Assembly (NCBI GenBank): GCA_030272155.1
Contig: CP126204.1
Location: forward strand, 3,401,501 to 3,465,500
Length of the DNA stretch: 64,000 nt
Direction of reading: 5' to 3'
Origin: Tetradesmus obliquus
Lineage: Eukaryota > Chlorophyta > Chlorophyceae > Sphaeropleales > Scenedesmaceae
Below are positions 230 through 56,203 of this stretch, one piece after another; position 1 is the first letter of the stretch; every line of letters begins with the position of its first letter. The notes under the pieces are model-generated. The model ran no database searches, had not been told where the DNA came from, and saw only the letters and a list, made by a program, of their open reading frames with translations. Made by a program: the position numbers and the translations under genes.

Positions 230-3200
230 CCGCGTGCGCATGCGCGACACCACCTTCAGCAGCAAGGCGTACGGCACGCACGAGTACAAGGACCTCACCA
301 TCGAGGGCCGCGTGCAGTTTGACGTGTACATGGCGCTGCAGCGAGACCACAAGCTCAGCAGTTACACACTCAACGCGGTGAGCTCACTCGAGTAATATGT
401 TTTTTGTAATTTTTGACATGTCAGCTATTATCCGAATGCAGTGATTGCGACAAGCTCCAGCTTCTCACGGCAGTGAGTGCTTGAATATGTGTAGCCATAT
501 GCTGGGTTTCAGCAGTTGTCCAGTTTGACGTGTACATGGCGCTGCAGCGAGACCACAACCTGTTCAGCTACACGCTCAACGCGGTGCGTGACACTGTGGC
601 TGATATTGCTGTTGATGCTGCTTGCAGTGAGCGCAACAAGCTCTGCAGCTGCAAGTTTGAAAGCGACATACGCGCTGATACCATTCTCATGTGTGTTATT
701 ACCCATGCAGGTTCGGCGCACTTTCTTGGGGAGCAGAAAGAGGACGTGCACCACTCAGCCATCAGCGACCTGCAGAATGGCAACGCGGAGACGCGCCGCC
801 GCCTGGCTGCTTCTGACACATTTGTATGCTTTTCTGCGTACCTTGTGTTCTTGCAGGTGTCGGCACGCGTCCTGGGCGAGCAAAAAGAGGACTTGCATCA
901 CTCAGCCGTCGGACTTGCCGAACGGCAAGGCGGAGGCCAACATGTTGTGGCTGCTTCTGACAATTACGTATGTTTGTGTACCGTGTCTCTCTGCAGGTGT
1001 CGGCGCAGTTTCTAGGAGAGCAGAAAGAGGACGTGCACCACTCAGCTATCAGTGACCTGCAAAACGGCAACGCGGAGACGCCCCGCCGCCTGGCTGCTTC
1101 TGACACATATGTATGCTTTTACGCATACCTTGTGTTTTTGCAGGTGTCGGCACACTTGACCTGGGCGAGCAGAAGGAGGACGTGCACCACTCCGCCATCA
1201 GCGACCTGCAGAACGGCAACGGCAGACACTCATATCCAACATTCCTGACTTTGTGCAATTGTGCTTGGCTGCCTGTCTTCCTGTGCAGGTGTCGGCGCAC
1301 TTCCTAGGCGAGCAGAAGGAGGACGTGCACCACTCAGCAATCTCTGACCTGCAGAACGGCAACGCGGAGACGCGCCGCCGCCTGGCTGTGTACTGCCTGA
1401 AGGACGCGTACCTGCCGCAGCGGCTGCTGGACAAGCTGATGTACATGTACAACCACATCGAGATGGCCAGGGTTACAGGGGTGCCTGCGAGCTACCTGCT
1501 GACCAGGTGCGCATGGATGTCAACACTTTCAAGCGTGTTTTATGACAATATCACTTGATTTCTGGCGTGCAAGTCACTGGTAGGATATGAATGCCTATTC
1601 TTCGATATTGGGTTGACTCACAGCGAGTGTGCGCAGCGGCTGCTGGACAAGCTGATGTACATGTACAACCACATCGAGATGGCCAGGGTCACAGGCGTGC
1701 CTGCGAGCTACCTGCTGACCAGGTGCGCATGATCGCCAACACTTGCTCAGACGTGCAGCCATCTGCTGCGTGTTCACCGCTGCTCCGCTCATGTTGAAAT
1801 CGCTGCTACTTCGCACCTTTTTCATACCATATGCAGGGGCCAGTCTGTCAAGGTGTTCAGCCAGCTGCTGCTTAAGTCACCATACACGCACTGCTGCTGA
1901 TGTTCAGCTGTTCACATGCTGCCTCATGCCATGCAGGACCATTCCATCAAGGTGTTCAGCCGGCTGCTGCGGCATTTAGCTATACCTCACTATATGCACA
2001 GTATACATACCTCATCATATGCGGCTGTTGCTGCGTCATGCCTGCAGGGGCAAATCCATCAAGGTGTTCAGCCAGCTGCTGCGCTGTTGCCCCCGCAGGG
2101 CCGGCCTACACAGGCACAAACCATCACGGGTCACTACACATGCACTGCTGTGCTCAATGCCATGCAAATGTAACTTCAAATGGTGCTGCCTTGTGCGTGC
2201 AGGGGCCAGTCCATCAAGGTGTTCAGCCAGCTGCTGCGTAAGGCGCGCCAGCGTGGCTTCATCCTGCCCTTCATGAAGGTGGGAGGGGCGGCAGCTGGCC
2301 AGGATGGCGTGGCCTACGAGGGCGCCACCGTGCTGGAGCCAAAGATCGGTGAGCGGCCATCTCATGGAGGCATTTGTTTGCAGTCTTTTACTACACTTGT
2401 GCGTGCCTTTCAGGGCTGGACACTTTCATTGGAATCAATGCATTTCCCTGTATGTTTCCTGTTTTATCCTTCCCCCAGGCTTCTACAAGGCGCCCGTGGC
2501 CACGCTTGACTTTGCCTCGCTGTACCCTCCAAACATGATGGCGCGCAACCTGTGCTGGACCACGCTGCTGCTGCTGCTGCTGCTGCTGCTGCATCTCTGC
2601 AGACTTCTACAAGGCGCCCGTAGCCTCACTAGATTTCGCCTCGCTGTACCCTTCCATCATGATGCCGCAAAACTTGTGCAACACCACGCTGCTGCTGCTG
2701 CTGCTGCTGCCGCTGCTGCATCTCCGCAGGAATTTACAAGGCGCCCGTAGCGACGCTGGACTTCGCTCGCTGTGGACAACCTGTGCTACACCTCACCGCT
2801 GCTGCTGCTGCTGCATCTCTGTAGGCTTCTACAAGGCGCCCGTAGCCACACTAGATTTCGCCTCGCTGTACCCCTCCATCATGATGGCGCACAACCTGTG
2901 CTACACCACGCTGCTCAGCAAGGAGGCGGCGCAGCAGCTGCCCCCAGAGGCCTACGAGCGCAGCCCCAGCGGCGATATGTTTGTCAAGTCCAGCACAGCG
3001 CGTGGCATCCTGCCAGAGATTCTGGAGGAGCTGCTCGCAGCACGCAAGCGGTGCGGCAATGTGCTGTGAAGTATGTTGATCTCTTTGTTTCCGTCCCTTC
3101 TTTCATAGAGCTAGTCTTCCGTGTATCCGTGCATGTTGTTGGTGCCCTACATGCCGCACGGCAGTGCTGCCGCCCGAGGCGTACGAGCGCAGTGTCAAGG

Positions 3201-5654
3201 CCAGCACAGCGCAAGGCTGTCATCCTGCGGAGATTCTTTAGGAGCCGCTCACAGCACGCAAGCGGTGCGGCATAACTTACTTTCCCCTCCATTACTACCC
3301 ATGATAATTCGGAAATAGTTCAAATGACATTACACGAGACTGATTGTGCACGGCCAAGGCTGCTTTCAAGGCAGCATCTGACTCTTCAAGGCACGGCAGT
3401 TACTCTGGAACAAATGTTTGTGCACAACATGTTGATTCCTTGCAGGGCCAAGGCTGACCTCAAGAAGGAGAGCGACCCCTTCCGGCGTGCCGTGCTGGAT
3501 GGGCGGCAGCTGGCGCTCAAGATCTCCGCCAACAGCGTGTACGGCTTCACAGGTGCGGCGACAGCAATGTCAACATACCAAACAAACGCCATTGACATCA
3601 ATACATAAAACCTATCATGGCGCTCGAGGTGTTCGCAAACAGCGTGTACGGCTTCAGAGGGTGGGATAGTAAACGTGTGATACGCAATGGGCGATCAGCA
3701 AAGGATCACAGAAGGCTTGCTAGTTGATGTGATGCTTGTTTGCCAACAGAGCATTGGCAGCGAGCTGTAAGATTAGCTGCACAGAGCTGTATCAGCAACA
3801 GTGTGTAGGCTGCATTGTGGAAGTGCACCACGCAAGTACTGCTCCTGCCTGACAGGCTGCCTGGTGTCTCGACGTGTAATTTTGCATCTGATTTATCATC
3901 CACGTGCTCAGGCGCCACTGTGGGCAAGATGCCCTGCCTGGCCATCAGCTCCACCACCACCGCGTACGGCCGCCAGATGATCGAGTCCACACGCACCTGG
4001 GTGCAGGTGGGTGGGGTGATAGGGGTTGCCTCATGCAACCGCATCTGTTTGTGACGTGCTTACACATGTTATTCAACGCCGGTTGGGAATGTATGTTCAG
4101 CATTGGAGCGCGCGCGAGCCACCGTTCTGACAAGTGTTTTGCAGCCGCTTGAAGAGAGCAGTGGCCTGCCACCAGCAATGAGGGCTGCTATGCTGAGAGT
4201 CTGCATTTGCCTGTGCCGTGCTGTGCTGCATTTCTCATACTGTGCAGGCGGAGTTCTGCACCGCCAAAGGCTACAAGGCGGACTGCGAGGTCATCTACGG
4301 TGACACCGACAGCGTCATGGTGAACTTCAAGGTGGGAATAAGAGCCAACAGCTCAGCAGTCACTCTTTGCAGCAACATCCCCGTGAACTTCAACATAATG
4401 GGCATTATCATTGTGTTGACACTGACGGTGGTGACGTATACGGTGCTGTGCAGACGCCTGACGTGGCGGAGGCAATGGAGCTGGGCTGAAGGCAACTGCA
4501 CTTCAAGTTGTAGTACAAGCACCTATTCAGCTGCTGGTCAAGCTGCTTTGCTTTCGATTGTTTCCATAATTTGATGTCTGACTAATGGTGCTGTGCAGAC
4601 GCCAGCAGCGTGTGGCAGAAGCCATGGGCAGAAAGCAGCAGCACTGATTAGCACCAAGTTCCCAGCTGCGTCAATATTACTCCTCAACACTGTTGTGCGT
4701 TAACACTGCTATGTGTCTCCATGTGCTGCGCAGACGCCAGATGTGGCGGAGGCCATGGAGCTCGGGCAGAAAGCAGCTGCGCTGATCAGCACCAAGTTCC
4801 CAGCTGTGTCAATATTACTCCTCAACACTGTTGTGCGTTAACACTGCTATGTGTCTCCATGTGCTGCGCAGACGCCAGATGTGGCGGAGGCCATGGAGCT
4901 CGGGCAGAAAGCAGCTGCGCTGATCAGCACCAAGTTCCCGCCACCCGTGAAGCTGGAGTTTGAGAAGGTGTACTTCCCCTACCTGCTCATGAACAAGAAG
5001 CGCTACGCGGGGCTGCTATGGACGCGGCCCGACAAGTGGGACAAGATGGACAGCAAGGTGCGCTGGGAAGTGAAACTCAGTGATTTGAACTTCCTGACTG
5101 CACTGCTTGCTGGTTGTTTTTTTATGTCTGGGCCAGTGTTGTGGCACCTGCTGGACTGGCCTCCGCGTGGTCATGTGTGTGCCCAGCGGCAGCGGCAGCG
5201 CCCGCAGGGATGATATGCATTTGATGGCATGGCACGTTGTACTTCCCCTACCTGCTCATGAACAAGAAGCGCTACGCGGGGCTGCTGTGGACGCGGCCCG
5301 ACAAGTGGGACAAGATGGACAGCAAGGTGAGGCTCTTTTTAGGGGTGCTTGCGGTCGGTGTTAATTTTGTGACATAGCGTTCTGTGCTGCATGCTGTGCT
5401 TGCTGGCCATTGATTGTGGGGTTTATTGGGTGGGGAGATCCTATTGCCTTGAGATGCGGGGCTGCTGCTGCTGCTGCGGCAGGGCTAGAAGGTGAGGCGC
5501 AACAATATGCTGCTGCTGCCGGCTTCCGTTGCTTTCATCTCGCTTCAGGTTTGCTTTCTGCGTGCAGGGCATTGAGACGGTGCGCCGCGACAACTGCGAG
5601 CTGGTGCGCAAGATGGTGGCTGCCTGGACAAGATCCTGATTCGTGTACACCTTG

Positions 5655-5686
<32 letters not shown>

Positions 5687-6596
5687 CAGGGCATCCAGAC
5701 GGGTGCGGCGCGACAATGTGCCACTGCTGTCGCTTGTGTCGGCTTTCATCTCACTTCCCATGCATGTTTGTTCGCCGCATGCAGGGCATTGAGACGGTGC
5801 GGCGCGACAACTGCGAGCTGGTGCGCAAGATGGTGGCCACCAGCCTGGACAAGATCCTCATCGAGCGGGACGAGGCGGGGGCCATTGAGTATGTGAAGGG
5901 CGTGATCCGGGACCTGCTCATGAACAAGGTGGACATGAGCCTGCTGGTGGTGACCAAGGTGCGGCTTTGCAGTATCATATTATACAGCTGGATGTTTTGG
6001 TGTCTATTTGACATGTGACGCGTGGGTTTGGGACAGTAAATCTGCTGATGAGCAAGATGGACATAATCCCGCTGGTGGTCACCAAGGTACTCTTTTCATG
6101 CTACTGCTGCTGCTGCCGCAGGCGCTGGCACAAGAAGCAGAGGACTACAAAGTGAAGTCAGCACACGTGGAGCTGGCAGAGAAGATGCGCAAGCGCGACC
6201 CTGCTACAGCACCTGCCATTGGGGACCGTGTGCCGTACGTCATCATCAAGGCAGCTAAGGGTGCGCATGAATGGTGGATGTACTCTTTTCAATGCTTGTT
6301 TAGTACTCGGCTCTTTGCCAGCGCTGGTCATTGGGGACCGCATGCTGTATGTCATCATCACGGCAGCCAAGGGTGCACGGCAGTGTGGGGCCAGTGTGGG
6401 CTGGAGTGTTCGTCTGGATGCGTCAGTGGTGTGTCGTCCTGTGGTGGTGATCGCTGCTGCAGCACGTCTGCGCTGCTTGCATGATGCTTGAGGCTGGATG
6501 CCCGCCCGATGTTCAGGGCCAAGGCGTGCGAGAAGGCGGACAATCCTAACTGAGCGCTGGATGACATCACAGAATGCTGACCCTGCTGCCGCCGCC

Positions 6597-6630
<34 letters not shown>

Positions 6631-6840
6631 ACCCACATAGGCGCCAAGGCGTACAAGAAGGCGGAGTACCCCATCTATGCGCTTGAAAACAACCTGCCCA
6701 TCACAACCACGACAATCACAACACAAGTCACTGAGTGTTGACACTTGTTCTGCTGTTGTGTGCATGCGCCAAGGCATATGAGAAGGCGGAGGACCCCATC
6801 TACGCGCTTGAGAACAACCATGCTGCTGCTGACGCTGCTG

Positions 6841-6897
<57 letters not shown>

Positions 6898-7717
6898 AAC
6901 CACCATTCTACCAGGCGCCAAGGCATACGAGAAGGCGGAGGACCCCATCTACACGCTGGAGAACAACCCTGCTGCTGCTGACGCTGCTGCTGCTGCTGCT
7001 GCTTGTGCTGCCGCTGCTGCTGCTGCTGCTGGCGCCGCTGCTGCTGCTGCTGCTGAACCACCCCCATTCTACCAGGCGCCAAGGCGTATGAGAAGGCGGA
7101 GGACCCCATCTACGCGCTGGAGAACAACCTGCCCATTGATGTGCAGCACTACCTGGACCACCAGCTGGCGCAGCCGCTTATGCGCATCTTCGAGCCGGTC
7201 TGCAAAGATGTAAAGGCTGAGCTGCTCAGCGGTGAGTTGACCTGAACTAAAGCCTGAGGCGTGAAGAGAAAGTCCGCAGAAAAGGGCTGCACAGAAAACT
7301 GCATATGTTGGACTTGTGGTGTGTGGTTTGCAAGCAGACGAGGGCAGAGCGGCTCAGAGGTGAGTGCTTGTTACAGCCGGAGGCTTGAGGAGAACGCATT
7401 GATGTGCAGCACTGCCTGGACCACCAGCTGGCGCAGCCGCTCATGCGCATCTTCGAGCCGGTGTGCAAGGACGTGAAAGCGGAGCTGCCCAGCGGTGAGT
7501 CTAGTTTTAGCGCCTGAGGCTTGAAGGGGCTGCAGTGTCGGGATTAATGGATGAGCCGCAGTGGCGCAGCCGATCATGCCCAACTTAGATTAGACTTAGA
7601 GTTTTAATTTGAAAGAGATATTTTTGAACCGAGCAGGTTGCACAGTAAGGGTGCAAAGGCAGGTTGCTCAAACGGGTGTGTGTCTGTATGTGTAAGTGTG
7701 AGCTGATGGAACGTTTC

Positions 7718-7770
<53 letters not shown>

Positions 7771-8735
7771 AGGGGCGCACACGCGCAGCATCAGCGTGGC
7801 CACGCCCTCCACAGCCTCTGGTGGCATCATGCGCTTCGCCAAGGTCAAGCCAACCTGCCTGGCCTGCAGGTGAGCTTCTTGTGGCATACCGCGGATTTCG
7901 TGTTATTTTCACGTTAGGTCACATAAGCGTCTACCGCTTCTGCCGGCATGCGCTTCGCCAAGGTCCAGCCCACCTGCCTGGCCTGCAGGTGAGTGCTGAC
8001 ATGCAGATCTTATACGTTTATTTGAGTGTTCTGCCACAACAGCAACGTGACAGCGCTGCAAATGCAAGCCCACTTAGTTGTTCAGGGCCGTTGCTGACAG
8101 CAGCCGCCAACATAATCATCTGTGGACGATGCCGGATGCGCTTCAGCTGCAACTGCTCATCTATTTGCTGCCGCGCTGCTGCTGCTGCTGCTGCTGCTGC
8201 TCTGCTTCTCCCAACCTCTGCAGAGCCACGCTCACGGCCAAGGAGGCCAGCGGCGCCGCCGGCAGCAGTAGCAGCCTGTGCAGCCACTGCGCCAGCAGAG
8301 AAGGGGAGATCTACACACGCAGCCTGGCAGCAGTCAACAGCCTGGAGCAGCAATTCGGTGAGTGCTGTTACCAGTGCTGTTAACTCAAAGACGGAGCTGA
8401 GGTGCCGCTGCACACTGGTCAATCAATTATCCATGCTTAGCAACTGCAGAATCATATGGACCCAGGATGCTACAGAACAGCAGGTGATAGCAGCCGATAG
8501 CTGCACTACCAGTTGACATGACGCAAGTGGCGCCTGACTGCAGTTTTGTGCCTCCGGCCCCGCTGCTGCTGCTGCTGCAGGCCAGCTGTGGTCCCAGTGC
8601 CAGCGCTGCCAGGGCTCGCTGCACCAGGACGTGCTGTGCACCAGCCGCGACTGCCCCATCTTCTACCGGCGCAAGAAGGTGGCAAAAGAGCTGGACGAGG
8701 CACACGCCACACTCAGCCGATTCACCGACTGGTAG
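230..8735 (+). CDS. POLD1: DNA polymerase delta catalytic subunit, 5'-partial, 14 exons
   Basis: Replicative B-family DNA polymerase, the catalytic subunit of nuclear Pol delta (lagging-strand synthesis and 3'-5' proofreading). Exons: 230-377, 1289-1506, 2203-2348, 2825-3050, 3446-3552, 3912-4006, 4248-4331, 4872-5057, 5785-5958, 6122-6260, 7076-7231, 7773-7869, 8224-8357, 8581-8735. Phases agree at every junction and give 687 residues, against about 1,100 for the whole family protein. Visible landmarks in order: the latter part of the exonuclease domain with Exo III-like YCLKDAYLP; motif [12 protein letters not shown]; motif [14 protein letters not shown]; motif [27 protein letters not shown]; the CysA pair CLAC with CSHC; the CysB iron-sulfur motif CQRC...CTSRDC followed by PIFYRRKKV; stop TAG at 8733-8735. 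The N-terminus and Exo I lie left of the window. Eleven of the 13 introns contain partial copies of a neighbouring exon; I see none in 4007-4247 or 8358-8580. The identity is certain. The choice among duplicated splice sites rests on frame and completeness. Confidence 0.96.
515..1288 (+). repeat. POLD1 intron made of exon-1-end copy and four exon-2-start copies
   Basis: The copy at about 519-582 repeats the end of exon 230-377 with its donor (GCG then GTGCGTG). Four truncated copies of the next exon follow, starting after AG at 711, 857, 997 and 1144. The complete exon starts at 1289. The spacing is 146, 140, 147 and 145 bases. Each unit is an intron tail ending in GCAG plus roughly 90 bases of exon. 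Three of the four stop at the CGCCGCCTGGCTG position, or close to it in the 857 copy, and run into the same TTCTGACA-type intron sequence. The 1144 copy ends differently. It has also lost the frame near its start (CACTTGACC for CACTTCCTA). The copies are decayed, not additional coding exons. Confidence 0.9.
1628..2202 (+). repeat. POLD1 exon-2-end copy and three exon-3-start copies
   Basis: Bases 1628-1721 repeat the end of exon 1289-1506, through CTGCTGACCAG and the GTGCGCATG donor, almost without change. Three copies of the start of the following exon then begin after AG at 1837, 1937 and 2048. Each has the CATCAAGGTGTTCAGCC core and then diverges. The complete exon begins at 2203. Both sides of one intron were therefore enlarged by copying its flanking exon edges. 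Confidence 0.88.
2479..2824 (+). repeat. Three copies of the POLD1 motif-A exon start
   Basis: Copies of the exon encoding polymerase motif A begin at 2479, 2603 and 2730, and the complete exon begins at 2825. The first two keep an open frame through a motif-A-like segment: [11 protein letters not shown] in the first and [11 protein letters not shown] in the second. The third has lost bases in this segment. Each copy is cut at ACCACGCTG or its equivalent and runs into a CTG tract. The 2603, 2730 and 2825 copies are preceded by TCTGCAG, CCGCAG and CTGTAG. Only the last continues into the rest of the exon ([11 protein letters not shown]). A transcript using an earlier acceptor without removing the later segment would meet the CTG tract and lose the enzyme core. 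Confidence 0.88.
3163..3659 (+). repeat. Copies of POLD1 exon-4 and exon-5 ends
   Basis: Bases about 3163-3264 repeat the end of exon 2825-3050, from CTGCC.CC.GAGGC to CACGCAAGCG plus GTGCGG, with several deletions. Bases about 3615-3659 repeat the end of exon 3446-3552, including AACAGCGTGTACGGCTTC. Both lie in the introns just downstream of the exon they copy. A short GGCCAAGGCTG stretch near 3353 may be a trace of the exon-5 start. Confidence 0.75.
4453..4871 (+). repeat. Three copies of the POLD1 exon-8 start
   Basis: Copies begin after CAG at 4453, 4599 and 4734, and the full exon begins at 4872. The last truncated copy (4734) and the start of the true exon are almost identical over about 139 bases, including the preceding intron tail, so this duplication is recent. 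The two earlier copies are clearly decayed. The array therefore shows a gradient of age, youngest next to the functional exon. Confidence 0.9.
5230..5784 (+). repeat. POLD1 exon-8-end copy and two exon-9-start copies
   Basis: Bases about 5235-5326 repeat the end of exon 4872-5057 (TACTTCCCCTACCTGCTC to GACAGCAAG plus GTGAGG) nearly perfectly. Copies of the exon-9 start (GGCATTGAGACGGTGCG) follow at 5568 and 5690 before the complete exon at 5785. A CTG tract precedes the 5690 copy. A copy of the exon-9 end with its donor also occurs downstream, at about 6039-6087. Confidence 0.85.
6330..7075 (+). repeat. POLD1 exon-10-end copy and four exon-11-start copies with CTG tracts
   Basis: Bases about 6336-6372 copy the end of exon 6122-6260 (ATTGGGGACCG to GCAGCCAAG). 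Copies of the exon-11 start (GCCAAGGCGTA.GAGAAGGCGGAG) occur at about 6517, 6641, 6766 and 6915 before the complete exon at 7076. Three of the four run into CTG tracts. The translated copies read [16 protein letters not shown] or close variants. The 6766 copy lacks an AG at its edge, so its acceptor is dead. Confidence 0.87.
7390..7989 (+). repeat. Copies of POLD1 exon-11 and exon-12 ends
   Basis: Bases about 7396-7492 copy the end of exon 7076-7231, from GATGTGCAGCAC to CCCAGCG plus GTGAGT. A further decayed trace is near 7550. Bases about 7943-7989 copy the end of exon 7773-7869, which carries the first CysA cysteines, up to TGCCTGGCCTGCAG plus GTGAGT. A (CTG)n tract at about 7722-7770 ends directly in the exon-12 acceptor CAG. 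Confidence 0.85.
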
Positions 8736-8799
8736 AAGAGTGATGTAGAGCAATGATGAGCAGGACTGTCAGTGTGGCAGGTTTGCAGCCGGCTGCTGG

Positions 8800-9225
8800 T
8801 GGGCTCTGCGCAAGGTGGCCAAGGAGCTGGATGAAGCACCTGCCACACTCAGCCGCTTCACCGACTGGTAGAAGCGGCGATACGAAACAGCATATCGCAC
8901 TGCTGCAGCAGCAGCAGCAGCAGCAGCAAAAGAGCTGGACGAGGCGCACGCCACGCTCAGCCGCTTCGCCGACTGGTAGATCCTGCACCTCGAATAGCCT
9001 GATGCACCGCGGCAGCAGCAGCAGCAGCAAAGGAGCAAAGGAGCAGCAAAGGAGCAAAGGAGCAGCAAAGGAGCCGGGCGAGGCGCTCGCCACACTCAGC
9101 CGCTTCACCGACTGGTAGATGCTTCACATTGAAACAGCACAATGCACCGCGGCAGCAGCAGCAGCAGCAAAGGAGCTGGACGAGGCGCACTCAACGCTCA
9201 GCCGCTGCACTGACTGGCAGATTTG
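8800..9225 (+). repeat. Four copies of the POLD1 terminal exon end with stop codon
   Basis: After the stop at 8733-8735, the last roughly 60 coding bases ([19 protein letters not shown], stop) reappear four times. They end near 8871, 8979, 9118 and 9220. The first three end in TGGTAG and the last in TGGCAG, so its stop is lost. AGCAGCAGCAAAGGAGC-type runs separate the later copies. They are probably in the 3' untranslated region. Any mRNA ending after each copy would still end in the same peptide if spliced there. Confidence 0.85.
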
Positions 9226-10379
9226 GCAAATCGGACAGCCTAACACACAGGGCAACTGCTGCAGCAGCAGCTTGCAGCTGTGGCAGCTCAGGCAACAGCT
9301 CTAAGTGAAGCTACGTGAAGTGCTGGCTCGCTCCACGGGCTGCTGCACAGTAGCTGCTGGGCGGGCACTCAGTTGGCTGCAGGGCGCTGCCGCACAAGTC
9401 ATGTTGTGGCGCAAGGCAGGTGGCCAAGGCAGGATCTGGGACAGATGCCACACCAAGGCATGCATGGAGGGATGCACATAGGTTTAGCTTGCATGTTGTG
9501 TTGCTCAGCGGTTATGCTGCATGTTGCAGTGGGCTGCATCAGGCACGGCAGTAGCGTTGGTTGCTTGCCTCTTTTTTGTACATTCAAGAGTCTCGAGTGT
9601 CGTGCCGTTGGTGGTAGTCTTTCTTGTTTGTGCATGGTTCCTAAGCAGTTCATTGCTGCATGTGGTGGGAATGTTTAGTGCTGCATCCTTCGCTCGTGCT
9701 GGAACCACTGCTACACGCATTGATATCAGTTCTGCCTCACAGCCTAATGCACGAGCCAGTACATGCTCATAGCTTCAATCTTGTCTGTTATCAGAGCACA
9801 TGCCTATGTACGTGTGCTGTCACAGCGTGCTGTGCACAGGATGGTTTGCTGTGTGTGCACCAGCTGCTGAAGAAGCAGCAGAGCTTGTCAAAAGTTCAGA
9901 CGGCGTCCCCGCCCTGCTTGTCTTGCATCTCATGAAAATTGATACCTTATGCTGCGGTGTTGTTACCCTGCTTGCACTTTGACTGCAAGATCATGCCTCC
10001 CGGGAGGCGCCTGAAGGGCAGGGCCTGCAGGAATGTGTGCTGACCTGGTAACCTGCGACTGTGCATCAACAATTGTGCGGTACATTCTAACCAAGTTTTC
10101 AACAATGATCATCAGCAACTCGTACATAACTGCGAGCTGCGCATTTGGGTGCGAAGGCGAAAACGGAGCGGAAACGGCCACCACCATGACAGCTGCTGCC
10201 TGTCTTAAGGCTCTGTATCTCCAAACCTCAATAAATATGCAAACTTTCATGCTGAATGCAGCAGTAGACCGATGACACGGATGTCCGACGCGCCAAAACA
10301 GGAGCAGAGCATGCACCAGCCGAATGAGAATATTGTAGCGCAATCAAAGTCGTTTGTCAAACTAATAACGACTTACATC
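9226..10379 (+). other. Intergenic region, no gene seen
   Basis: This is the interval between the POLD1 3' copies and the metalloprotease start. Open frames are short and show no family signature. It presumably holds the POLD1 3' untranslated region and the promoter of the next gene. I recognise no specific control element. Confidence 0.5.
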
Positions 10380-10853
10380 ATGAGTTTCTCTAGGCTTGCC
10401 TCTTTGGCACTGCTGGTAGCTTTTAGCACTGCTGCATGTAGGGCTTGCCAGCAGCAGACTCAAACACCCCAGTTGCAGCCGTGGGACAAGCTAGCAGGTT
10501 CTGCCAATGGTAGAAGAAGATCGCTTCTGTCATTAAAAGCGAGAAGGTGAGGTAGTGCATTGCATACAGCAAGACTACGGGTCGGTGCTGCAGCAAGCAC
10601 ATGCTGGTGGAGATGCATGCGTGAAGATGCATCAGCATACCATGCTCGACACAATCAAGAAATGTGCAAGAGCTTGGGGTGCTGCAGAAAGTAACAATGT
10701 TGCTTAGTCAGATGGCACCCTGATGTAATGCTGCCATTGCATGATGTGGCAGGTGCGCTACGGAATCACCACATCCAGATACACGGCAGCAGCTGCAGCA
10801 CCAGCAGCATGCAGCTCTGTCAGCTCAGGAAGCAGCACGAAGACCTGTCACTC

Positions 10854-13594: not shown

Positions 13595-26636
<13,042 letters not shown>

Positions 26637-31403: not shown

Positions 31404-32147
31404 CAGCAAGGCAGCAGCACAATCAGTCGGCAAGTCAAGGCTGTGAGGAGCAGTGCGCTGTCTGTGGACTTTATGCAAAGCTGGCTGCAGCCCGCCGCCT
31501 GCTGCTGCGCAGTTTCAGCAGTCAAGTCGGAACTTGTCAGTTGTGTGACTGCACAAATGCTTACACCCAGACAACATGTAGTGAACTACAAGCAGGCAAT
31601 GCAGCAAGCAGCTGCAGCAGCCGCACCTGCCAGGTCCAGCATCCACACCCACTGCTCCTGACCGTTCTTCATGTTCTTGATGGCTGTCTCCACCACAAAT
31701 GTCATGTAGCGCAGGTACTGCAGCAGCAGCAGCAGCAGCAACAGCAGCAGTGTCAGTAGTGTCAGCTACAGCCGATGTACTTGCACACACTGCCGTGTAG
31801 GCCAAAAGTAAGAACGCGTGCAGAAGGCAGGTTATAGCCACATGGATAAGCGCCAACTTGCTGTGGGGTTATGGCCGTAACGTCCCTTTGCTGGTGCTGT
31901 GGCGCAGCAAGCAGGCAGGCTCTGCTAGCTAATAGCTACACACCAAAAAATGACCAGGGAGCCGTCATGCATGCCTGCTGCAGGGGCCTGCTGCAGCAAC
32001 AGACCCAGCTGCTGCTGCTGCTGCTACTGCTGGCAGCGAGGCAAGATCTGATCAGCCTGTGCGCTGCAGCATGCAGGACAAGATTTGCATGCAGGAACTG
32101 TCACAGGTCTGCCTTGCACTCTTCAAAGCCGCCTCCTGATGCTGCTG

Positions 32148-32189
<42 letters not shown>

Positions 32190-44818: not shown

Positions 44819-46932
44819 TCACCGATGCCCAGCATATACTTGTTGCCGTCCATCAGCTCATAGTTCAAGCTGCCGTTCGCAGTCCACACCGCCTGCCACA
44901 GCTGCCGCCCCATGTTGAACTGCCAGGAGCAGTTTGCAGGCGGCTTGGGCATCTGGGTGTTAAAGTATTTGAAGGTGGGTGGAAGCATTGCCGTGCTTTT
45001 GTTGGCCGCGAAGGCATTGGTGACGCGCGCGTGCAGCTCCATTGCTGCAGCTAGGGCATAGCTGCTGGCGCTGTAGAGGTCCTCGTCCTGCAGCAGCAGC
45101 AGCAGCAGCAGCAACTGTGTCAGCTCCATGGCTGCTGCCAGGGCGTAGTTGCTGGAACTGTAGAGGTCCTCGCCCTGCAGCAGCAGCAGCAAGCCTGTCA
45201 GCTTGCAGTGAGTGGCAAGGGTTGGCGTTAGCAGGCACACCTGGTGGCATGCAGCAACACCCATATACACACTGTTCGCTACAGCTTGCATTACACAAAC
45301 CACCATCATGTACTGACTACAGCCGCCGAGTACAGCCGCCGTACCTGCTGCCACGCAATCTTAGCCGCCTGCAGCAAGCCCCCCAAGCCAAACTACGAGT
45401 GGTACATGTCGCGCATCGTCTACACCTTGTGGGTTGGACACTGTAAGCAAGCACCGTCTCACCTGCTGCCACGCAATCTCAGCCGCCTGCAGCAAGCCCC
45501 CCAGGCCGAACTGGCTGTGGTACATGTCGCGCATCGTCTACAGCATGCATCTGATACACTACGTGCTGTTGTTCTCACCTGCTGCCATGCAATCTCAGCC
45601 GCCTGCAAAAGCCCGCCCAGGCCAAACCGGCTGTGGTACATGTCGAGCATGGTCTTTACTTTGAGCATTGGAATGTAAGCAAGCACCGCCTCACCTGCTG
45701 CCTAGCGATTTCGGCCGCCTGCAGCAAGCCCCCAAGGCCAAACTGGCTGAGACACACAAACCACACACCGCACCTGTTGCCACGCAATCTCAGCCGCCTG
45801 CAGCAGGCCCCCAAGGCCGAACTGGCTGTGGTACATGTCCCGCATCGTCTCGCTGCACTCGCCCGGCAGCCTGCTGACGTTGCCGTACTGCGTGGCAAAA
45901 CTGCCTTTGCCCCATTTGAGGTGGTCTGCGACTGTCGCAGTGAACGTCGAGACGCCGGAGTTGTACATGGTGCGGTTGTTGCCGAGCACGCCGAGCGCCA
46001 TATAGGCCTCCGCCAGTGTGCTGTGCCCTGCAGGGTGCGGCGGGAGAGGATAAGATGGCAAGTCAGGGAGTGTGCTGTGTAAGTGTGTAAGAGCATGAAC
46101 ATGCTTGTACATGGTGCGGTTGTTGCCGAGGACCCCGAGCGCCATGTAGGCTTCCGCCAGCGTGCTGTGCCCTGTGGGGTGCAGCAGGAGATGACAAGAC
46201 GGCAGGTGAGGGTTGGGCCATGGGGAATGCCATTTCCAATAAACTGTCTGGCACCTTAAGGGCGATGTCAGCTTCTGCAAGCGTGCAGTGCCATGAACCC
46301 ATTCAACAGGGTACAGCGGTATCATAGGGCTTGAGAAAAAAAATGCCAATTGGAAGTCAGTTCAGTTGCGCTGATGCAGTTGAAGTAAGGAGTTGTCTGG
46401 CATCCTGTGATCCTATTGCGCACGTGACACGACATGATGCGCGTCTGCTGCTGCTACACCACAACTGCGTAAAAACCGCTCCAGCCGCAGACTCACAGTT
46501 GGGCAGGTTCTTGCTGGTGAGGGTCACCGTGCAGTACAGCATGTCTTGCTTGATGGCTGTCACTGCTATTCCCCGACAGTCGCAACACGAGACATCGCCC
46601 ACATCCTACTCACAGTTGCTGGACTGGTTAGGCAAATTCTTGCTGGTGAGGGTCACCGTGCAGTACAGCATGTCTTGCATGCTTGGCTGTCCATTGTATG
46701 CCGGAACCCCACAAAAGCCCTAGCCTCATACTCACAGTTGCCGTACTGGTTGGGCAGGTTCTTGGCTGTGAGGGTCATCGTGTAGTACAGCATGTCTTGC
46801 ATCGGCACTTTGTTGACCCAGCTCAAGAACTTGCCAATGACGTTGCTTGTGTCCCGAGACCGTACCAGCTCCAGTGCCCGGGCCATGGCAGCGATGCCCC
46901 AGCCGGCTTCAAGAGGCCCATTCTCCCTGCAA

Positions 46933-46964
<32 letters not shown>

Positions 46965-47076
46965 GTGTTGATGGGAGGCGTTGTTCACAGTGGCAGCAGT
47001 GATGTTGTTCAAGATGTTGACTAGTGAGTGCACGCGTGGCAGGACCAGCGGACACAATACAAAAGTGGCGGCCACG

Positions 47077-47112
<36 letters not shown>

Positions 47113-48699
47113 GCTAAAACTGCTCACCAGTGCCAGCCCCAGTCCGTGTTGGTGGTGGCCCAGGCGTTGATGATGCTCAGCACTTGAGTAGCGTAGCGGG
47201 CATCTCCTGTGGCGTACCAAGCAAGGGCCATTTTGTAGACCATCTGCGCGTCCATCTGCAAGCAGCAACAGAGAGATGGCATGTGCTTGAGCAGAGAGTT
47301 GTGAAGGTGAGCACAGGCAAGCGAGCGCCATCTTGTAGACCATCTGCGCGTCCATCTGCAGGCACAATGGGTTTAGCAGGCAGATGTAAGAATCAGCAGA
47401 GGTTGGCGGGCATAGCCGCAGGCCAGTAGAGAGTAGGCGTACCAAGCAAGGGCCATCATGTAGACCATCTGTGCGTCCATCTGCAGGCAAGGACATGGTG
47501 GCACATGGATCAGCAGAGCCGTGCGAGGAATAGCAGGAAGTACAACAGCTGCAGAGGCATGCATGCTGGCATTACAGCAGTACCCTGTGACAAATGAAAT
47601 GGCCAGCGATCAAGCAGCAGCAGCAGCAGCAGCAGTACACACAGCACACGCAGCCGCACTCACCTCTACAAAGCTCACATGCCCACAGATGCTGACGGGT
47701 GCCCGTGGGTCGTACGCTGCTTAGCAGTCAATCCACACAACGCACACACCACAAACATCATATATCAGACTGCCAAGGGCATCTGCCATAGCACATACAC
47801 ACACTCACCTCTACAAAGCTGACATGCCCACATATGGTGATGGGTGCCCTGGGATCGTACGCTGCCGAGCAGTTGATGCCAGGCGCATTAATGCCTGAAT
47901 AACGGATCTGCACATTGGGCATCGCCAGCGATCCTGCAGCCTGATACCCAGTAACAGGGCAATTCGTAGGTGGGGCCCACACTCCGCCCCCTTGGGCTGC
48001 CGGTACGGCCCTATTCTTAGGCACTACACCTGTACCGTCGATGAGTGTGCTGCGTGCTGCCAGCTGCACGGCGCTGCTGCTGTTTCTGAGCCGGTTGAGT
48101 AGTAAGGCCAGCTCCGAGGCCCCTACTGCACTGCCAGGGTGGATAATGCCGCTGCTGCTGTGCACGCTGCGTAGGCCGGTGATGTTACCGCGCACTGCTG
48201 CTGGCAGCAGGGCCTGTGCGGCGGTTTTGATCTTCTGGATGAGTGTTCTGTTGAGGCTGGGTGCAGTGAAGCTTGTCATTGTGTATTGAGTGGCGCCGTT
48301 GACCAGCGAGTAAACTGGCACGCTGGCGAGTTGCGAAGGGATGCCGCAGGTGCTGTAGGGGTAAGCTGGCGGTGCTGACAGGTAGCCTCCTGAGAGGTTT
48401 AGGTCGTTGCGGGGGATTCCTGCAGTCACATTTGTTTGCTGCGCCACTGCAACTGACGCGATGGATACTGCAGAAGATGGCAGTGTGATGCGCCTGTACA
48501 TCCTGCAGCATGCTGCTCTGGTAGCCCTGAAGCGGCGAGTGAGCGGGATTTGACCGCAGTTGACTATCTGCTGCTCGGAGCTGCAGCTGCGCCATGCAAC
48601 AGCAGGCTCTACTCCTGGCTCTGCTACTGCTGCTGGAAGCTGCTGCTGCAGAAGCACCAGGCCTGGCAGCAGCAGCGCCAGGATCGCCGAAACCCGCAT
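42994..48699 (-). CDS. Secreted alginate-lyase-family (PF05426-like) protein, 7 exons
   Basis: Probable polysaccharide lyase with the alpha/alpha-toroid fold of alginate lyases. Exons on the minus strand: 48699-47809, 47255-47128, 46926-46736, 46027-45774, 45087-44823, 44567-44458, 43569-42994; all in phase, 804 residues. The start gives a signal peptide (MRVSAILALLLPGLVLLQ). A roughly 280-residue N-terminal region, not recognised, precedes the domain. Family-like landmarks: MVYKMALAWYATGDARYA, NGPLEAGWGIAAMARALELV, NWHSTLAEAYMALGVLG, SETMRDMYHSQFGLGGLLQ, AAEIAWQQDEDLYS, TGWEMGYNHYVGRLGMQLPE and EFHWGSGTLTHAET. The tail from about residue 640 is Ala-rich low complexity. The substrate could be a uronic-acid polymer of the algal wall or of other organisms; this is inference. 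Every intron holds copies of exon edges. Confidence 0.88.
43640..44457 (-). repeat. Six copies of the alginate-lyase exon-6 end with donor
   Basis: The exon-6 end, encoding ETAAMLARSWPEWQ, plus GTGAGG is complete at 44458. It recurs with donors near 44327, 44196, 44070, 43939, 43837 and 43711. The spacing is mostly 126-131 bases, with one at 102. GTGAG is kept in every copy. A copy of the exon-7 start (GAGTTC.A.TGGGCCC) lies at about 43640-43657. Confidence 0.9.
44597..44669 (+). repeat. (ATG)n microsatellite
   Basis: About 24 perfect GAT/ATG units in an intron of the alginate-lyase-like gene, just next to a CAG run. It is not coding in the gene model. The Met and His runs in open frames are effects of the repeat. 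Confidence 0.97.
45088..45773 (-). repeat. Copies of alginate-lyase exon-4 end and exon-5 start
   Basis: The end of exon 46027-45774, encoding MYHSQFGLGGLLQAAEIAWQ, recurs at about 45696-45745, 45575-45650, 45460-45530 and 45345-45412 with CAG plus GTG.G donors where kept. One copy of the start of exon 5 (GAGGACCTCTACAG) lies just before 45178, preceded by CTGCAG. Confidence 0.87.
46028..46735 (-). repeat. Copies of alginate-lyase exon-3 end and exon-4 start
   Basis: Copies of the end of exon 46926-46736 (ATGCTGTACTGCACGGTGAC to ACTGTGAGT) lie at about 46614-46680 and 46494-46552. Copies of the start of exon 4 (GGCACAGCACGCTGGCGGAAG) lie just before 46172 and, more decayed, near 46290. Confidence 0.85.
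47256..47808 (-). repeat. Copies of alginate-lyase exon-1 end and exon-2 start
   Basis: The end of exon 48699-47809 (GTACGA.CC.. to AGCTTTGTAGAG plus GTGAGT) is copied at about 47664-47722. The start of exon 2 (CTGCAG + ATGGACGC.CAGATGGTCTAC) is copied at about 47482 and 47358 before the complete exon at 47255. Confidence 0.88.
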
Positions 48700-51600
48700 G
48701 TTGACTTGTTGATAGGATGGTTGATGGCTTCCGTAGCTGGTTGGGCTGCTTTACGTTCACAAGGATGCAGACGGAAGTGCTGGGAAGCCCTGCCATGTGG
48801 TTGTACGCTATTACCGATACTATTACCAATACTATCCTTTATCGTCCAAAGATACCACTAAATATCAATACGCCGGTCTTCAAAAGTATAATGACGAACT
48901 GCAGAACATCTCTGCTGCAGCCCCTGTGCGGCGACCAATAGCCATATGTGGGGGTGCGATGCACCTGGGACTGTCCTGGGCGGTCGCATGGCTTTCTGAA
49001 GTAACGAAAGAAGCAGGTTCAGGTGTAAGATACGATACCAGCTGTGTCGCAGGAACCACACGCAGGTGCACTGTGACAAAGGCTGATCCACAGACAGTCC
49101 ACTCACTGTCCAGTGGGGGGTGTTTGGGCCATCCACAGCACCTGCTGTGGATCACTGTGAGGGCGAGTAGCTTGAACGGCTTGCGCTGTCTCAAAAACTG
49201 TTTATTAGATTGAAAACATGATCGGGTGTGGCAGAACCTGCGCTAGGGCATGCTCATGACCCCAAACCAGCAGGTGGTCACCCATGGACACCCTTGACCC
49301 CCGGCAGTGACATTGGCGTCCTGTTCACTGACCAAACAACAGAAAACCAACTTCCGTTCAACGATAATGCTACTGCAAGAACGTTGATGATCGCAGAGTG
49401 GACTTGCGCAGAACAAGTCAAGTAGATCGCCTCAGTGCACTGCCGGCAGCGTATCGCTGCTGTTACTTATCTTAACGAGAAGAAACTATATAAATATAAA
49501 CCTTACCTTAGTAGCTGATCACTCAGCCATCGTTTAACCTCTGCCCTGACAAGTAACAGAACTCAAACAGCCTGTCAACTTCTGTGGGCCAAGCATGGGC
49601 GTCTAAATGTTGCAATGAGTGTTCCTTGATCACTGGGCCGCAAATCTGTACTTTGTCAAAAGATCACAGCCCCATGAGACCAACCACAGGTGCAGTTAGT
49701 TCGCAACCAGCGGCCTGTGTTCGTCCGGCTGCTATTCTGATGTCTCGAAAGTAGTATACGACGTTTTTTTGGTCCCTGTTGCACATTACATGGGAACAGC
49801 TTGCAGCAGGAGGCGCAAGGAGGCGCTGCCAGGTGCTGCCAGTGGCAGCCCCCCAGCAACCCTGCAACAGAACTGCACGAGCAGCTTCGATGAGGGAATC
49901 GTTGATCTACGTGGAAACATGCGAGCTGCTTTCATGAACGGAATGGTGTGAGCTGGCCACAGGTGAACACCAGGGACTCCAGCGCAGAGACGCTGCTGCT
50001 GCAGCAGCAGCAGCAGCTGCTGCCAGCGACGCCTGCAGCAAACAGCACCTAGACTGCCAGCAAACCACATTTGGTTGGTATTTATGGCACTCAATGTGCG
50101 TATCTGACCGTCGCTGCATGCCATGGCATGTTGCCAGCAGTCTCGCACGCATCGCCATGCATGCAACTCCTGCCTGTCGACCCATCCAAGTTTGCCGCAC
50201 TGCAGGTGTATGATAACTGCGCTGCGCCGGAGAAGGAAGCCAGCCACAGCAAATCAAGTGGTCAGTGCCAGGCCTAATGTAGTGCCGGAGGCAGGGACAA
50301 CTTCAGCAGGTGCGCGGCTGATTGTTGCTGCTGCTGCTCTGCTCGATCTGCATGATAACCTGCTGCAGCAGAACACCAGCAACGGTGGTGCTAGCATGAC
50401 TGCAACAGCAGCGCTGTAGGGGCAGCCGCAGCAGCGGTGGCAGGGGTGCTTCAGCTCATGTAAGGAAGTGCACGCAGAAGTACATTGTTGCCGGCAAGCT
50501 GATTGGCGGTTGCAGCTAGGATCTCATTTGGGGTGATGCAAGCACACTACACGTTGCCAGAAGAGCTTCACTCAACACTACAGCATGGCAGACTCGCACT
50601 GCACACCCATCTACGTGTACTCAACTCATACTTTGCTTGCGTGCGTATTGCAGGGTTCAAAGAAGGGGGCATTTTCCAGGACGCAGCCATGGAACATGCG
50701 TTATCGGCAGGCTGCTGAGGAGGCGCGAGGCTCAACCACAGCGCGTGCGCATGACGACAGGGTGAGTTGCAGGCAATGCAACGTGCAGTCAGGCAGCAGG
50801 GATCAGCTGGTGTCCTACGCTTTTGCAGGCATTGCAGGTCCTGTGCATGACGGCCACAGTGTATTGCATCATTCCTGCAAGCACAGCAGTGTGTGCCTGG
50901 CCTCAGCAGTTGCCTGTTGTCTTCTGCTGGTTTTGCTGATTTCTGCAGGTGTTCAAGGCGTCGTTGGCAGTCAACTGCTGTATCCCCGCACATGCCAATT
51001 GGCTCCAGCAAGGCAATCATCACGCTGCTGGGACAGCGCAACCAAAATGGTCCAGCGGCTTATGAAGAAAGCTTCCAGGCAGCTCAACTCAGGGGCAGTC
51101 GCATGGCAGCAGGTGCAGCAGTGCAGAAGGATGCTACGTCCAATCACCACAGTGCAGGCAGTAAGTAGAAGGTGCTACCAAGCGAGGACAACATGCGCGT
51201 CATGGAGGTGTAGATTGCAGCGAGGATTATGCGCACCCAGCTGGGGCAGCAGCAGTAGCAGGGTATGCTGTCAGTGCAACAGGCGGGCATGGGTGCAGCA
51301 TCTGCTCAGCGACCGGTGTGCCGCAGCGCTCGGCCGCTTCTGTACCAGTCATGCAGTAGCTGTGGGCTTGCCTTCATTGTTTGCTGTATTGTCTTTGATT
51401 GCAGATGGTTTTGCAGATGTTGTGTGTGGCACTGTGCTGTGTGTGCAATCTCTGTGTGTACAAGGCCAACACACAGCTGGAGGTGTTGGAGTGCTTATGT
51501 GGGCCCATTGCATCCTCTGTGTTGTGCATATTGATCCAGAAATATGATATTTCATGGTTGCATTCAGTCTGGTAGACTGTTTGCACTTGTGCAGTACCTT

Positions 51601-52354
51601 CACTGTATGGGGGGTGCAGCCCCGAGCTCGAAGTTCGCCCTGCAGCTCTGCCACTGTGCTCGATGAGCTGATGCGCCTCATATGATGTTTATAATGTTAT
51701 TTTTACAATATAGTATACGTAACTCAGCGTTTTGGCACTGTTCTGGGTCATCCACGAGTTCATCCACTGATCGCAGCAGCCCATCCACGGCTCACTGGAT
51801 ACGTGCCCTCTGTGGATGGCCACTGGACGTCATCCACAGGCCCACTGGACGGCCGTCCGTGGACGCTCAGTGGACGCTGTGTGGATGCGCCTTTGTCACA
51901 GTTGTGACTGCGTCCGCAGACCGTCCCGGTTTCTGGTAATGACATATCACTGATACGTGGACTGCCAATCGGCCAACAGCAGATTAAAAATGCAAAACCG
52001 TACAATCTCAACAGCTGATGCAGTCAACCAGGCGTCCATACCAAAGTTGGCAGCCCTGCTCGCTGCATCCCCACAATTGCATACTCGCAGGCAAGTGCCT
52101 GACCAGGCTCTCACAACTGGAAGGAGAGGTGGTGCGCGATTGACAGCCAGCAGCACATGGGCTTTTCTGATTATGCAGCTGATCAGCCAGCTCAATTTCA
52201 TTCTGCTGCCTTAAAGCAGGTCTTGCTGACAACTAAGACGAAGTGGCAAGTTGAGTCTGTCGTGTGCTCTGTGGTGTATGCCTTTGAGGTCGGGTGTTGA
52301 ATCGGTCACAGCACTGCTGGAGTTGAACTCCAGCTGCTGCCTCAGCGTCCTTGG

Positions 52355-52397
<43 letters not shown>

Positions 52398-53604
52398 GCT
52401 GCTGCTGCCGATAAGAGTGCCTTAACAGCACCCCGATGTAGGCGCATTCTGACCAGCCTGGCAGGCCGGTTGTCTCCCGCACTCGCCCAAGTCTCAACGT
52501 GCTAGCAGCAGGCATAGCAAGTGATGAGGCAGAGGTTGGCCCTACATAGATGTAAGGGCAGTCTGCAGAGAGCTGCAATGGCTTCAGTAGAGGCACAGCA
52601 ACACCAATGCCACCATGGCTACAGCTTCTCACCAGGCTCGCTCCTCACCAGGCTCAGCGGCTCGTAGTAGTCAAATCGCCCTGCCCATGGGCCACTGGAC
52701 ACTGGCATGATGATTCCATACAACTTGCACTGCCCACTGGCCAGCAGCGGCACTGTCGGGTGACATGACGCATGCCCTGCATGCAGCTGCGCAGCTGTAG
52801 TACTGCTGAAGATTGCTGGGGTTGCGCTCATGTGGTGCAGTACACCTGCTGCCATCACAGCAGAGAGACAGAAATCGACGTGGAAGCAGTTGAGCTCGCG
52901 ATGAAGCTTTCAAACCACTGAACATGAAGACTCAGCAGACCGTCCAGATGCAGCTGAGTGTGGTGCCACGCTGCCCATCGCTTGGTTGCTGCTCTTGTCC
53001 CTGAGGCGTGCAGCAAACAAGGTGGCCACTAATGTACGTGGTTGCCCAAGATTTTCACGTGTGTGGCAGTGCTTTGTCTGCCAGTAACAGACAACCCGTT
53101 TGTGAGACGTTGACAGGGCATCCTGTTCATGCTGACTTATCACGATGGCTCTTCGTACAGTCCAAAACTATACAGTGCTACGTGCGTATAGGTACAACTT
53201 GATGCCGACTGCGTGCTCGGTTTGAAAAGGGGCTGACTTCCCTCAGCGTTTGCCTGTGATTTGGTCGTCCGTACTGGACGTTCATCCACGCTCGGCCGAT
53301 GTGTACGTCATAAAAACATCTTGTAAAAGGTTTTGAGCATAACAATGCAGAGTCACACCAGAAAGCGACGACTTTAAGGCTGGCTCTTTTTCGCCCAGCG
53401 AAGTTGATGTTGGCTTCACTTCACAACCCAGCACCTCGTCGCTGGAGTTGACACCTGTTTCCTAAATCTATGTTTGATAATCAGTCGTCTGCGCTACGTC
53501 GGTCGCTTAGTCTGCAATATCTAGCCCGTTTGCCCACTGATGCCCAAGCCTGTTGAGCCAAGCTCGCCTGCCAGGCATCGTGCAGGGCATTTAGGCACCA
53601 GGAA
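48700..53604. other. Intergenic region, possible gene fragments only
   Basis: Five kilobases between the alginate-lyase-like start (-) and the ankyrin gene (+). Exon-like open stretches on the plus strand (about 49861-49948, NCTSSFDEGIVDLRGNMRAA with a GTGAGC donor; about 50950-51118, IGSSKAIITLLGQRNQNGPA) look coding-like, but I cannot join them or recognise a family. A cluster of CATCCAC/TGGACG motifs lies at 51740-51930, with a related segment on the other strand at 49060-49150. The rest shows nothing identifiable. Confidence 0.4.
51735..51935 (+). repeat. Candidate short dispersed element rich in CATCCAC and TGGACG
   Basis: Within 200 bases, CATCCA occurs at least five times, and CACTGGA/AGTGGA and GTGGA many times, forming several short inverted pairs. 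The end, CAGTGGACGCTGTGTGGATG then CGCCTTTGTCACAGT, resembles 49060-49110 on the opposite strand (CAGTGGACTGTCTGTGGATCA then GCCTTTGTCACAGT). A third trace (TACTGGACGTTCATCCACGC) is at about 53270-53292. It could be a nonautonomous transposon; no terminal repeats or target-site duplication were established. Confidence 0.4.

Positions 53605-54624: not shown

Positions 54625-54657
<33 letters not shown>

Positions 54658-56203: not shown

Follow-up and report, generated by a model that had tools for sequence, protein, structure and literature searches.

Background

By what route do introns lengthen when mobile elements are not involved, and what sets the point at which the added sequence ceases to resemble its source? 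Intron lengthening of this kind is an open question, and it is raised by a stretch of 64,000 nucleotides from the green alga Tetradesmus obliquus (assembly GCA_030272155.1, contig CP126204.1, positions 3,401,501 to 3,465,500 of the forward strand; hereafter the window, whose numbering is used below). Introns of POLD1 and of further genes in the window contain partial copies of the edges of the exons that adjoin them. An earlier description made from the letters alone, here called the sequence-only reading, ascribed these copies to an ongoing duplication of 100-160-base segments across exon-intron borders. We combined gene models, samples of the remaining genome and simulations, and find exon-edge copying in T. 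obliquus introns to be a real observation, made in about half of the introns modelled in this culturable alga. The homology mostly has its limit close to the end of the coding sequence, whether at a splice junction or at a stop codon. Splice sites within the relic copies are still readable, which makes it possible to work out in what order events took place and to compare strains.

Exon-edge copies in modelled introns

Exon borders were placed with a custom spliced protein-to-genome aligner. For POLD1, protein P0001 (EukProt GHUV01012659.1.p1), which we take from its name to be transcript-derived, aligned over 773 of 773 residues and gave 17 exons, three of them upstream of the window, with GT-AG borders at all introns. 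For the alginate-lyase-like gene, the annotated protein P0121 (OEZ85_004592) aligned over 520 of 553 residues with 6 mismatches and gave 6 exons; the first lies about 4.2 kb further off, and its intron was excluded, leaving 5 introns for counting. The genome comprises 17 contigs with 104,662,953 bases in total, and random stretches of it yielded UBA3, SNU114, glutamate-cysteine ligase (GCL) and a MAP kinase (MAPK), for which PDB chains served as templates; these four models have approximate outer ends, and one SNU114 exon has a doubtful start. The six genes lie on five contigs and supplied 46 counted introns. Ab initio gene finders were dropped as a source of gene models, having drifted or called copies exons, and some of their predicted proteins were kept as queries. 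The edge copies resemble exons closely enough that the gene finder used in this analysis was misled, and gene finders may be misled by them in general.

A direct repeat of the adjoining exon's edge was present in 24 of the 46 introns, on the donor side in 18, on the acceptor side in 13 and on both sides in 7. Copies of exon heads sit upstream of their exon and copies of exon tails downstream, with the intact exon innermost, as the sequence-only reading had described. The exact models also bore out the copies it had reported in POLD1 (13 of 16 introns) and in the alginate-lyase-like gene (3 of 5); GCL carried copies in 5 of 6 introns and SNU114 in 3 of 8. None was found in the 6 introns of UBA3 (stretch L022) or the 5 of MAPK (stretch L010), against 18 of 22 for POLD1 and GCL together, and the difference among the six genes was significant (chi-square p 0.001). 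Chance is excluded as a source of these matches because controls were nearly empty: 0 of 441 non-adjacent exon/intron pairs in POLD1 and the alginate-lyase-like gene, 0 of 230 exon/intron pairs swapped between genes, and an inverted match in 1 of the 46 introns. A purely intronic repeat was likewise found in only 1 of 46.

The claim that the introns absorb the surplus agrees with their lengths, the median being 510 bases in introns that hold copies and 290.5 in the others (Mann-Whitney p 4.5e-6); of the total sequence of the 46 introns, 29% consists of copies. Long introns need not carry arrays: a repeat search of the first intron of the alginate-lyase-like gene (48421-52630, minus strand, about 4.2 kb) gave no copies. 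The POLD1 exons and copies of the window are as follows.

230-377, plus strand: POLD1 exon, the fourth of the model, from the P0001 alignment; a tail copy lies in the next intron at 518-586
706-1288, plus strand: array of head copies of exon 1289-1506, in units of about 143 bases, in the intron before that exon
1289-1506, plus strand: POLD1 exon, with a tail copy at 1632-1744
1832-2083, plus strand: three head copies of exon 2203-2348, with unrelated spacers between them
2476-2824, plus strand: head copies of exon 2825-3050
3166-3272, plus strand: tail copy, in two pieces, of exon 2825-3050
3618-3660, plus strand: tail copy of exon 3446-3552
4443-4871, plus strand: head copies of exon 4872-5057; the inner unit equals the exon over 68 coding bases
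5238-5329, plus strand: tail copy of exon 4872-5057, 98.9% identical, the homology ending 3 bases into the intron
5461-5716, plus strand: head copies of exon 5785-5958, which also has a tail copy at 6042-6088
6329-6376, plus strand: tail copy of exon 6122-6260
6514-7075, plus strand: head copies of exon 7076-7231 in an array whose spacers are CTG-rich
7343-7526, plus strand: tail copies of exon 7076-7231
7947-7993, plus strand: tail copy of exon 7773-7869
8581-8735, plus strand: POLD1 terminal exon, including the stop codon
8812-9221, plus strand: four copies of the end of the terminal exon, whose matches stop 1-3 bases past the stop codon

Homology mostly ends with the coding sequence

The repeated unit had been described as intron tail, AG and exon head. 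This holds mainly for the inner units of multi-copy arrays, but in the 44 of 58 pairs that have a unique spacer the match is mostly coding, with a median of 53 coding bases (range 17-100) and only 7.5 non-coding bases (quartiles 3 and 22) out of about 166 that were available. High identity within the edge does not extend this reach by much: in the 11 pairs of at least 92% identity the match runs 3 to 27 bases into non-coding DNA, and in SNU114 intron 3 a copy that is 100% identical over 54 coding bases has an unrelated outer flank. Among outermost copies the non-coding part was lost in 21 of 31, and in 13 of the 15 with at least 88% identity.

Simulated plain tandem duplication with neutral decay (donor side, 120 runs per level) behaved differently: the non-coding part was retained almost in full at divergences of up to 8%, and was lost in less than 1% of cases up to 12% and in 17% at 16%. 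Plain duplication followed by decay is therefore insufficient, and the proposed simple duplication of 100-160-base border-crossing segments is not supported by the comparison. Loss of non-coding homology is common, not universal.

Terminal exons place the limit more precisely. As the sequence-only reading had noted, the last exon is copied with its stop: four copies lie behind the stop codon of POLD1 and end 1 to 3 bases after it. One copy of the GCL terminal exon ends 4 bases after its stop, and in stretch L015 an unmodelled gene has the residues GANHGAGYEALEQWCQGQL-stop and a relative of them, the match ending 1 base after the stop. The phenomenon is thus not a matter of introns only, as had been supposed, although this part of the evidence is a small sample of three terminal exons. 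Since there is no splice site at a stop codon, the limit is the coding boundary and not splicing; reverse splicing and RNA-based copying are excluded by the same ends; and because nothing but selection acting on the coding sequence could single out a stop codon, selection is left as the marker of the border. The stop-codon rule is in this respect a sharp test, which removes splicing as the cause and points to selection and recombination.

Array anatomy and relic splice sites

Multi-copy arrays alternate edge and spacer and have a coding edge at both ends. Among the inner copies of GCL intron 5, edges differ by 2-4% and spacers by 0-5%; in the outermost copy the edge differs by 0-4% and the flank is unrelated. 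When two spacers and one flank were searched against the genome, with simple repeats and very common words skipped, all three matched only their own array, and spacers were consequently rejected as mobile elements of the introner or transposon kind. POLD1 segments 5058-5237 and 5327-5440, searched as part of this set, had no other match in the genome.

Copies have largely retained their splice sites, with GT present in 20 of 26 relic donors and AG in 25 of 27 relic acceptors. Pyrimidine content was 0.68 in the 20 relic acceptors with unrelated flanks, compared with 0.70 in real acceptors and 0.49 at other intron AGs (p 3e-8). The donor form GTGNG occurred in 76% of 17 relics with unrelated flanks; real sites showed it in 98% of cases (n = 46) and other GTs in 13% (n = 1,093). 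Relic sites nearly as good as real ones are expected if each once served as a real site. Duplication of whole exons followed by truncation was rejected, given that heads occur upstream and tails downstream, and so were alternative protein isoforms, as offsets were not enriched for multiples of three (20 of 53, where about 1 in 3 is expected).

A separate observation concerns acceptors. Tracts of CTG triplets often stand directly before them, as in CTGCTGCTGCAG immediately preceding the exon (7761-7772, 8569-8580 and elsewhere), and may substitute for the pyrimidine tract.

Splicing of the innermost exon and independent support

Neither P0001 over its whole length nor P0121 over its aligned part shows any trace of the copies, the innermost exons being joined. 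P0150, which reads as made from spliced RNA, uses the innermost copy at both exons of the sulfatase gene that carry acceptor-side arrays, and the copies reported for that gene are upheld.

17113-17461, plus strand: head copies of sulfatase exon 17462-17560
17679-18170, plus strand: head copies of sulfatase exon 18171-18308

Independent support comes from P0132, a 223-residue translation that runs through intron and exon of the alginate-lyase-like gene in a separately assembled relative. It derives from separate, non-identical short contigs with the source label 'lgn', which we take to denote assembled public reads; it is 95% identical overall and holds the copy at 46105-46212, the spacer and the exon. 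Its presence there indicates that this copy is not an assembly artefact and that it predates the split of the two strains. A search for recent paralogues of the alginate-lyase-like gene, as a further comparison, gave none that was sufficiently close. The arrays of the gene are these.

45121-45749, minus strand: fourth counted intron, to which exon 45774-46027 contributes tail copies and exon 44823-45087 one head copy
46105-46212, minus strand: head copy of exon 45774-46027, also in P0132
46498-46680, minus strand: tail copies of exon 46736-46926
47436-47728, minus strand: tail copy (47640-47728) of exon 47809-48420 and head copy (47436-47489) of exon 47128-47255

Distribution over the genome

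The copies had been suggested to be a genome-wide property. To the window and its two neighbours we added 20 random 10-kb stretches over all 17 contigs, 284 kb in total. This sample held 117 local arrays of any kind, present in 14 of the 20 random stretches. Arrays touched a detected coding segment in 52 of 117 cases, against 28 +/- 4 after shifting (maximum of 500 shifts, 46), and none of the 117 lay more than 90% inside coding sequence; coding detection is incomplete for these counts and may take copies for coding sequence. Of the 140 coding segments compared, 64 had a near repeat, with 25 of 51 inside modelled genes and 39 of 89 among the rest.

A count made without recourse to gene models covered 103 repeat pairs that have a unique spacer; 42 of them ended at a splice-like junction, and for 1,997 displaced ends the share was 9.6%. 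Leaving aside the six modelled genes, the count was 27 of 76 (p 9e-10). In the random stretches it was 18 of 46, and pairs of this kind occurred in 10 of the 20. The suggested genome-wide reach is accordingly upheld for arrays and splice-limited repeats over stretches, but not for every gene, as UBA3 and MAPK show. Array density was not linked to guanine-cytosine (GC) content over 21 stretches (rho 0.23, p 0.31), and a GC effect was rejected. The mean intron of T. obliquus is 462 bases, against 230-302 in the four other green algae tabled with it (PMC5966456), a difference that fits intron growth by edge copies without proving it.

SEC14-like, reticulon-like and ankyrin genes had also been listed as carrying edge copies. 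Repeat arrays do exist in these regions, one SEC14-like array starting at TGCAG/GT, but they were recorded as arrays only, with exon borders not exactly modelled, and the reticulon match is under the Pfam cut-off.

30347-31019, minus strand: array in the SEC14-like (CRAL_TRIO) gene; repeat blocks start at TGCAG/GT
31972-32701, minus strand: a further array of this gene (no exact exon borders)

Divergence of the copies

Copies differ from their exons by 0-27% (edge identity 73-100%). The 53 copies carry 299 changes, comprising 154 silent, 138 replacing and 7 to stop, and the silent share is thus 0.515, above the value of 0.412 that an unconstrained copy of an exon under constraint should show (p 2e-4). 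The excess is absent from copies below 0.85 identity (34 of 82, expected 0.425) and present at 0.92 and above (35 of 60, expected 0.395, p 0.002; 25 of 43 when each border contributes a single copy, p 0.006). The oldest copies do not code for protein and drift like free sequence; younger ones look as if they were recently part of, or reset by, a working exon. Selection on the copies was our first reading of the silent excess and was dropped, as silent change in the real exon, resetting by exchange and birth from another allele fit equally.

Origin of the arrays

The account that we favour, tentatively and as somewhat short of probable, is that exon edges were duplicated long ago and that unequal exchange, recurring through the coding edge under selection, has kept the copies alike. 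A local duplication reaching from inside a coding exon into adjoining non-coding DNA would create an extra edge copy. The copy would be harmless where splicing takes the complete innermost exon or where it lies behind the stop codon; innermost use is shown by proteins for POLD1 and the sulfatase gene, by annotation for the alginate-lyase-like gene, and is presumed for the remainder, with exon definition as its probable reason. Direct repeats of the coding edge would then recombine often, by unequal exchange or slippage, adding or removing units of edge and spacer and reshuffling the edges, so that these would stay alike. Spacer and outer flank would never pair with each other and could drift without limit. 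With the gene's used edge held by selection, the recognizable repeat would end where coding ends, at splice junction or stop codon; introns would grow by arrays of edge copies, and wholly intronic duplications, lacking the anchor, would fade. Concerted evolution by unequal exchange has this general property: repeats stay alike and unpaired flanks diverge. The alga would differ from the usual case in that one member is a selected coding edge and the others are non-coding relics. Simulated unequal exchange did leave edges partly alike while spacer and outer flank diverged.

A number of results weigh against this account. In the fastest run, with 100 exchanges per junction per substitution time, the outermost edge was 73% identical after 2 substitutions per site, where many real outermost edges are at 90-100%; higher exchange rates would be needed, by extrapolation. 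The simulation skips contraction to zero, and tract-type gene conversion, which was also simulated, at no point yielded a repeat restricted to coding sequence. No new edge copy was observed while arising, and P0132, the one relative available, has the same unit with no difference in copy number. Clusters of mismatches within copies, which recombination might leave, were not significant (p=0.11). Changes common to the copies of one array enter the silent tally more than once, and the excess becomes weak (78 of 166, p 0.085) when each border contributes a single copy; a silent excess is also seen at 0.85-0.92 identity (85 of 157, expected 0.411, p 7e-4). Non-coding arrays are barely more coding-like than controls (p 0.01). 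Near repeats are not confined to exon edges, being found for 65 of 250 random non-coding segments against the 64 of 140 coding segments given above, and some intron-flank similarity beyond the edge persists in 19 of 53 copies, including 14 of the 34 with at least 0.90 identity.

The last two results suit a simpler view, that plain local tandem duplications arise everywhere, that those crossing a border survive as the innermost exon is spliced, and that all copies decay neutrally. Border-crossing would then be the commonest tolerated outcome in short introns, and the full units of edge and spacer at inner array positions (POLD1 intron 10, SNU114 intron 3) and the 65 of 117 arrays away from detected coding sequence are in keeping with it. 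We nonetheless consider it unlikely: it does not yield the observed non-coding loss, it is contradicted by edges 99-100% identical with unrelated flanks, it leaves the scarcity of purely intronic repeats unaccounted for, and about 15 of 38 non-coding arrays, among those listed and as judged by eye, end at a splice-like site. A serious rival, which we also judge improbable, is that the copies were born between diverged versions of a gene, from old haplotypes or a hybrid ancestor, when template switching joined an edge to the intron or untranslated region (UTR) of the other version. Only the coding part would ever have been alike, which would explain without tuning the coding-limited match, the functional splice sites on both sides, the spacers without another match in the assembly and the silent excess at 0.85 identity and above. 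It sits poorly with the relative's intron, which still aligns easily in P0132, and with edge identities from 73 to 100%, which a single hybrid event does not fit; duplications on the same chromosome should also be at least as frequent.

That copies are kept for a function, as decoy or alternative splice sites regulating splicing, would be in accord with the strength of the relic sites and with P0132, where, by eye, copy and spacer agree with the window and the outer intron differs. The gaps and stops that copies gather (7 of the 299 changes), the copies after stop codons with no evident role in splicing, and offsets that keep the frame no more often than expected make this quite improbable. 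Splicing products or RNA copies pasted back by reverse splicing or as complementary DNA would account for ends at splice junctions within introns, but most copies retain GT or AG and none of 26 copies, among those listed, joins the next exon; this idea, very improbable on those grounds, is practically refuted by terminal-exon copies that end at stop codons. Repeats are a known assembly hazard, and an assembly or sequencing artefact is nevertheless a negligible prospect, given the differences of copies from their exon and the reading of copy 46105-46212 in a separate, non-identical contig.

A broader version of exchange through selected edges is conceivable, and we regard it as rather doubtful. 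In it, coding edges, whether at splice sites or at stop codons, would anchor self-renewing arrays throughout a eukaryotic genome, expanding and contracting like an accordion within bounds set by selection; this would be a main route by which introns and 3' ends grow, and stuttering in birds, described below, would be a local outbreak of a process general to eukaryotes.

Relation to known systems

The form of these repeats had been thought undescribed, but exon stuttering has already been published from chicken dot chromosomes, where exon-edge fragments with their splice sites are copied through introns (Hron et al. 2026, PMC12954441). As given in the main text of that report, stuttering affects 236 introns in 115 genes, with 190 of 5,572 dot-chromosome introns (3.4%); its source lies at most 1 base from the exon border in more than 90% of cases, the exon part measures 20-187 bases, lengths differ between individuals, and intron-only stuttering occurs too. 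Its authors record it in birds and mention some gerbil genes as data not shown; the words 'stop codon', 'UTR', 'alga' and 'plant' are absent from the main text. Judged from their sequence, the algal arrays are the same kind of feature. Both comprise local partial copies of an exon edge, with its donor or acceptor site, in the adjoining intron beside an intact exon; the alga has imperfect tandem blocks of tens to hundreds of bases, its matches are strictly local in the non-adjacent and swapped controls, and the exon is intact in POLD1 over 773 residues. The two differ in frequency (24 of 46 modelled introns, against 3.4% of dot-chromosome introns) and in location, algal arrays occurring on most contigs sampled and chicken ones mostly on dot chromosomes. 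The lack of a GC link in the alga is a further difference, GC-rich dot chromosomes being the avian location of stuttering and not its definition. Purely intronic repeats are almost absent from the modelled algal introns, and algal copies also end at stop codons.

New here are the spread over an algal genome, the frequency and the stop-codon limit; literature searches of open-licence papers showed no report of exon-edge copying in algae among the entries listed. The algal arrays link a curiosity of chicken microchromosomes with a remote lineage, and this speaks in favour of a general mechanism.

Intron gain by tandem duplication, in the AGGT model as outlined in PMC3443670, shares with the algal case a local border-crossing duplication whose copies inherit splice signals. 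The algal copies, in contrast, lie inside existing introns, each beside its own exon, and the order that the model would give, with the head of the next exon first and the tail of the previous one last, is reversed: previous tails are on the 5' side and next heads on the 3' side. Minisatellites and ordinary tandem repeats resemble the inner units of some algal arrays, which are typical tandem repeats, but algal units are anchored on a coding edge with which they begin and end, and spacer and outer flank are for the most part unrelated.

Other repeats and coding stretches

The window has further repeats. About four tandem units of 152 bases lie at 24360-24969, the first with a complete exon-like stretch of 78 bases, AG and GT; this repeat may represent whole-exon duplication rather than edge copies. 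A minisatellite of 40 bases occupies 21116-21524 in about ten copies with 96% matches. In random stretch L019, positions 7160-9963 hold a coding stretch that, from the look of its sequence, we take as a candidate hAT-type transposase.

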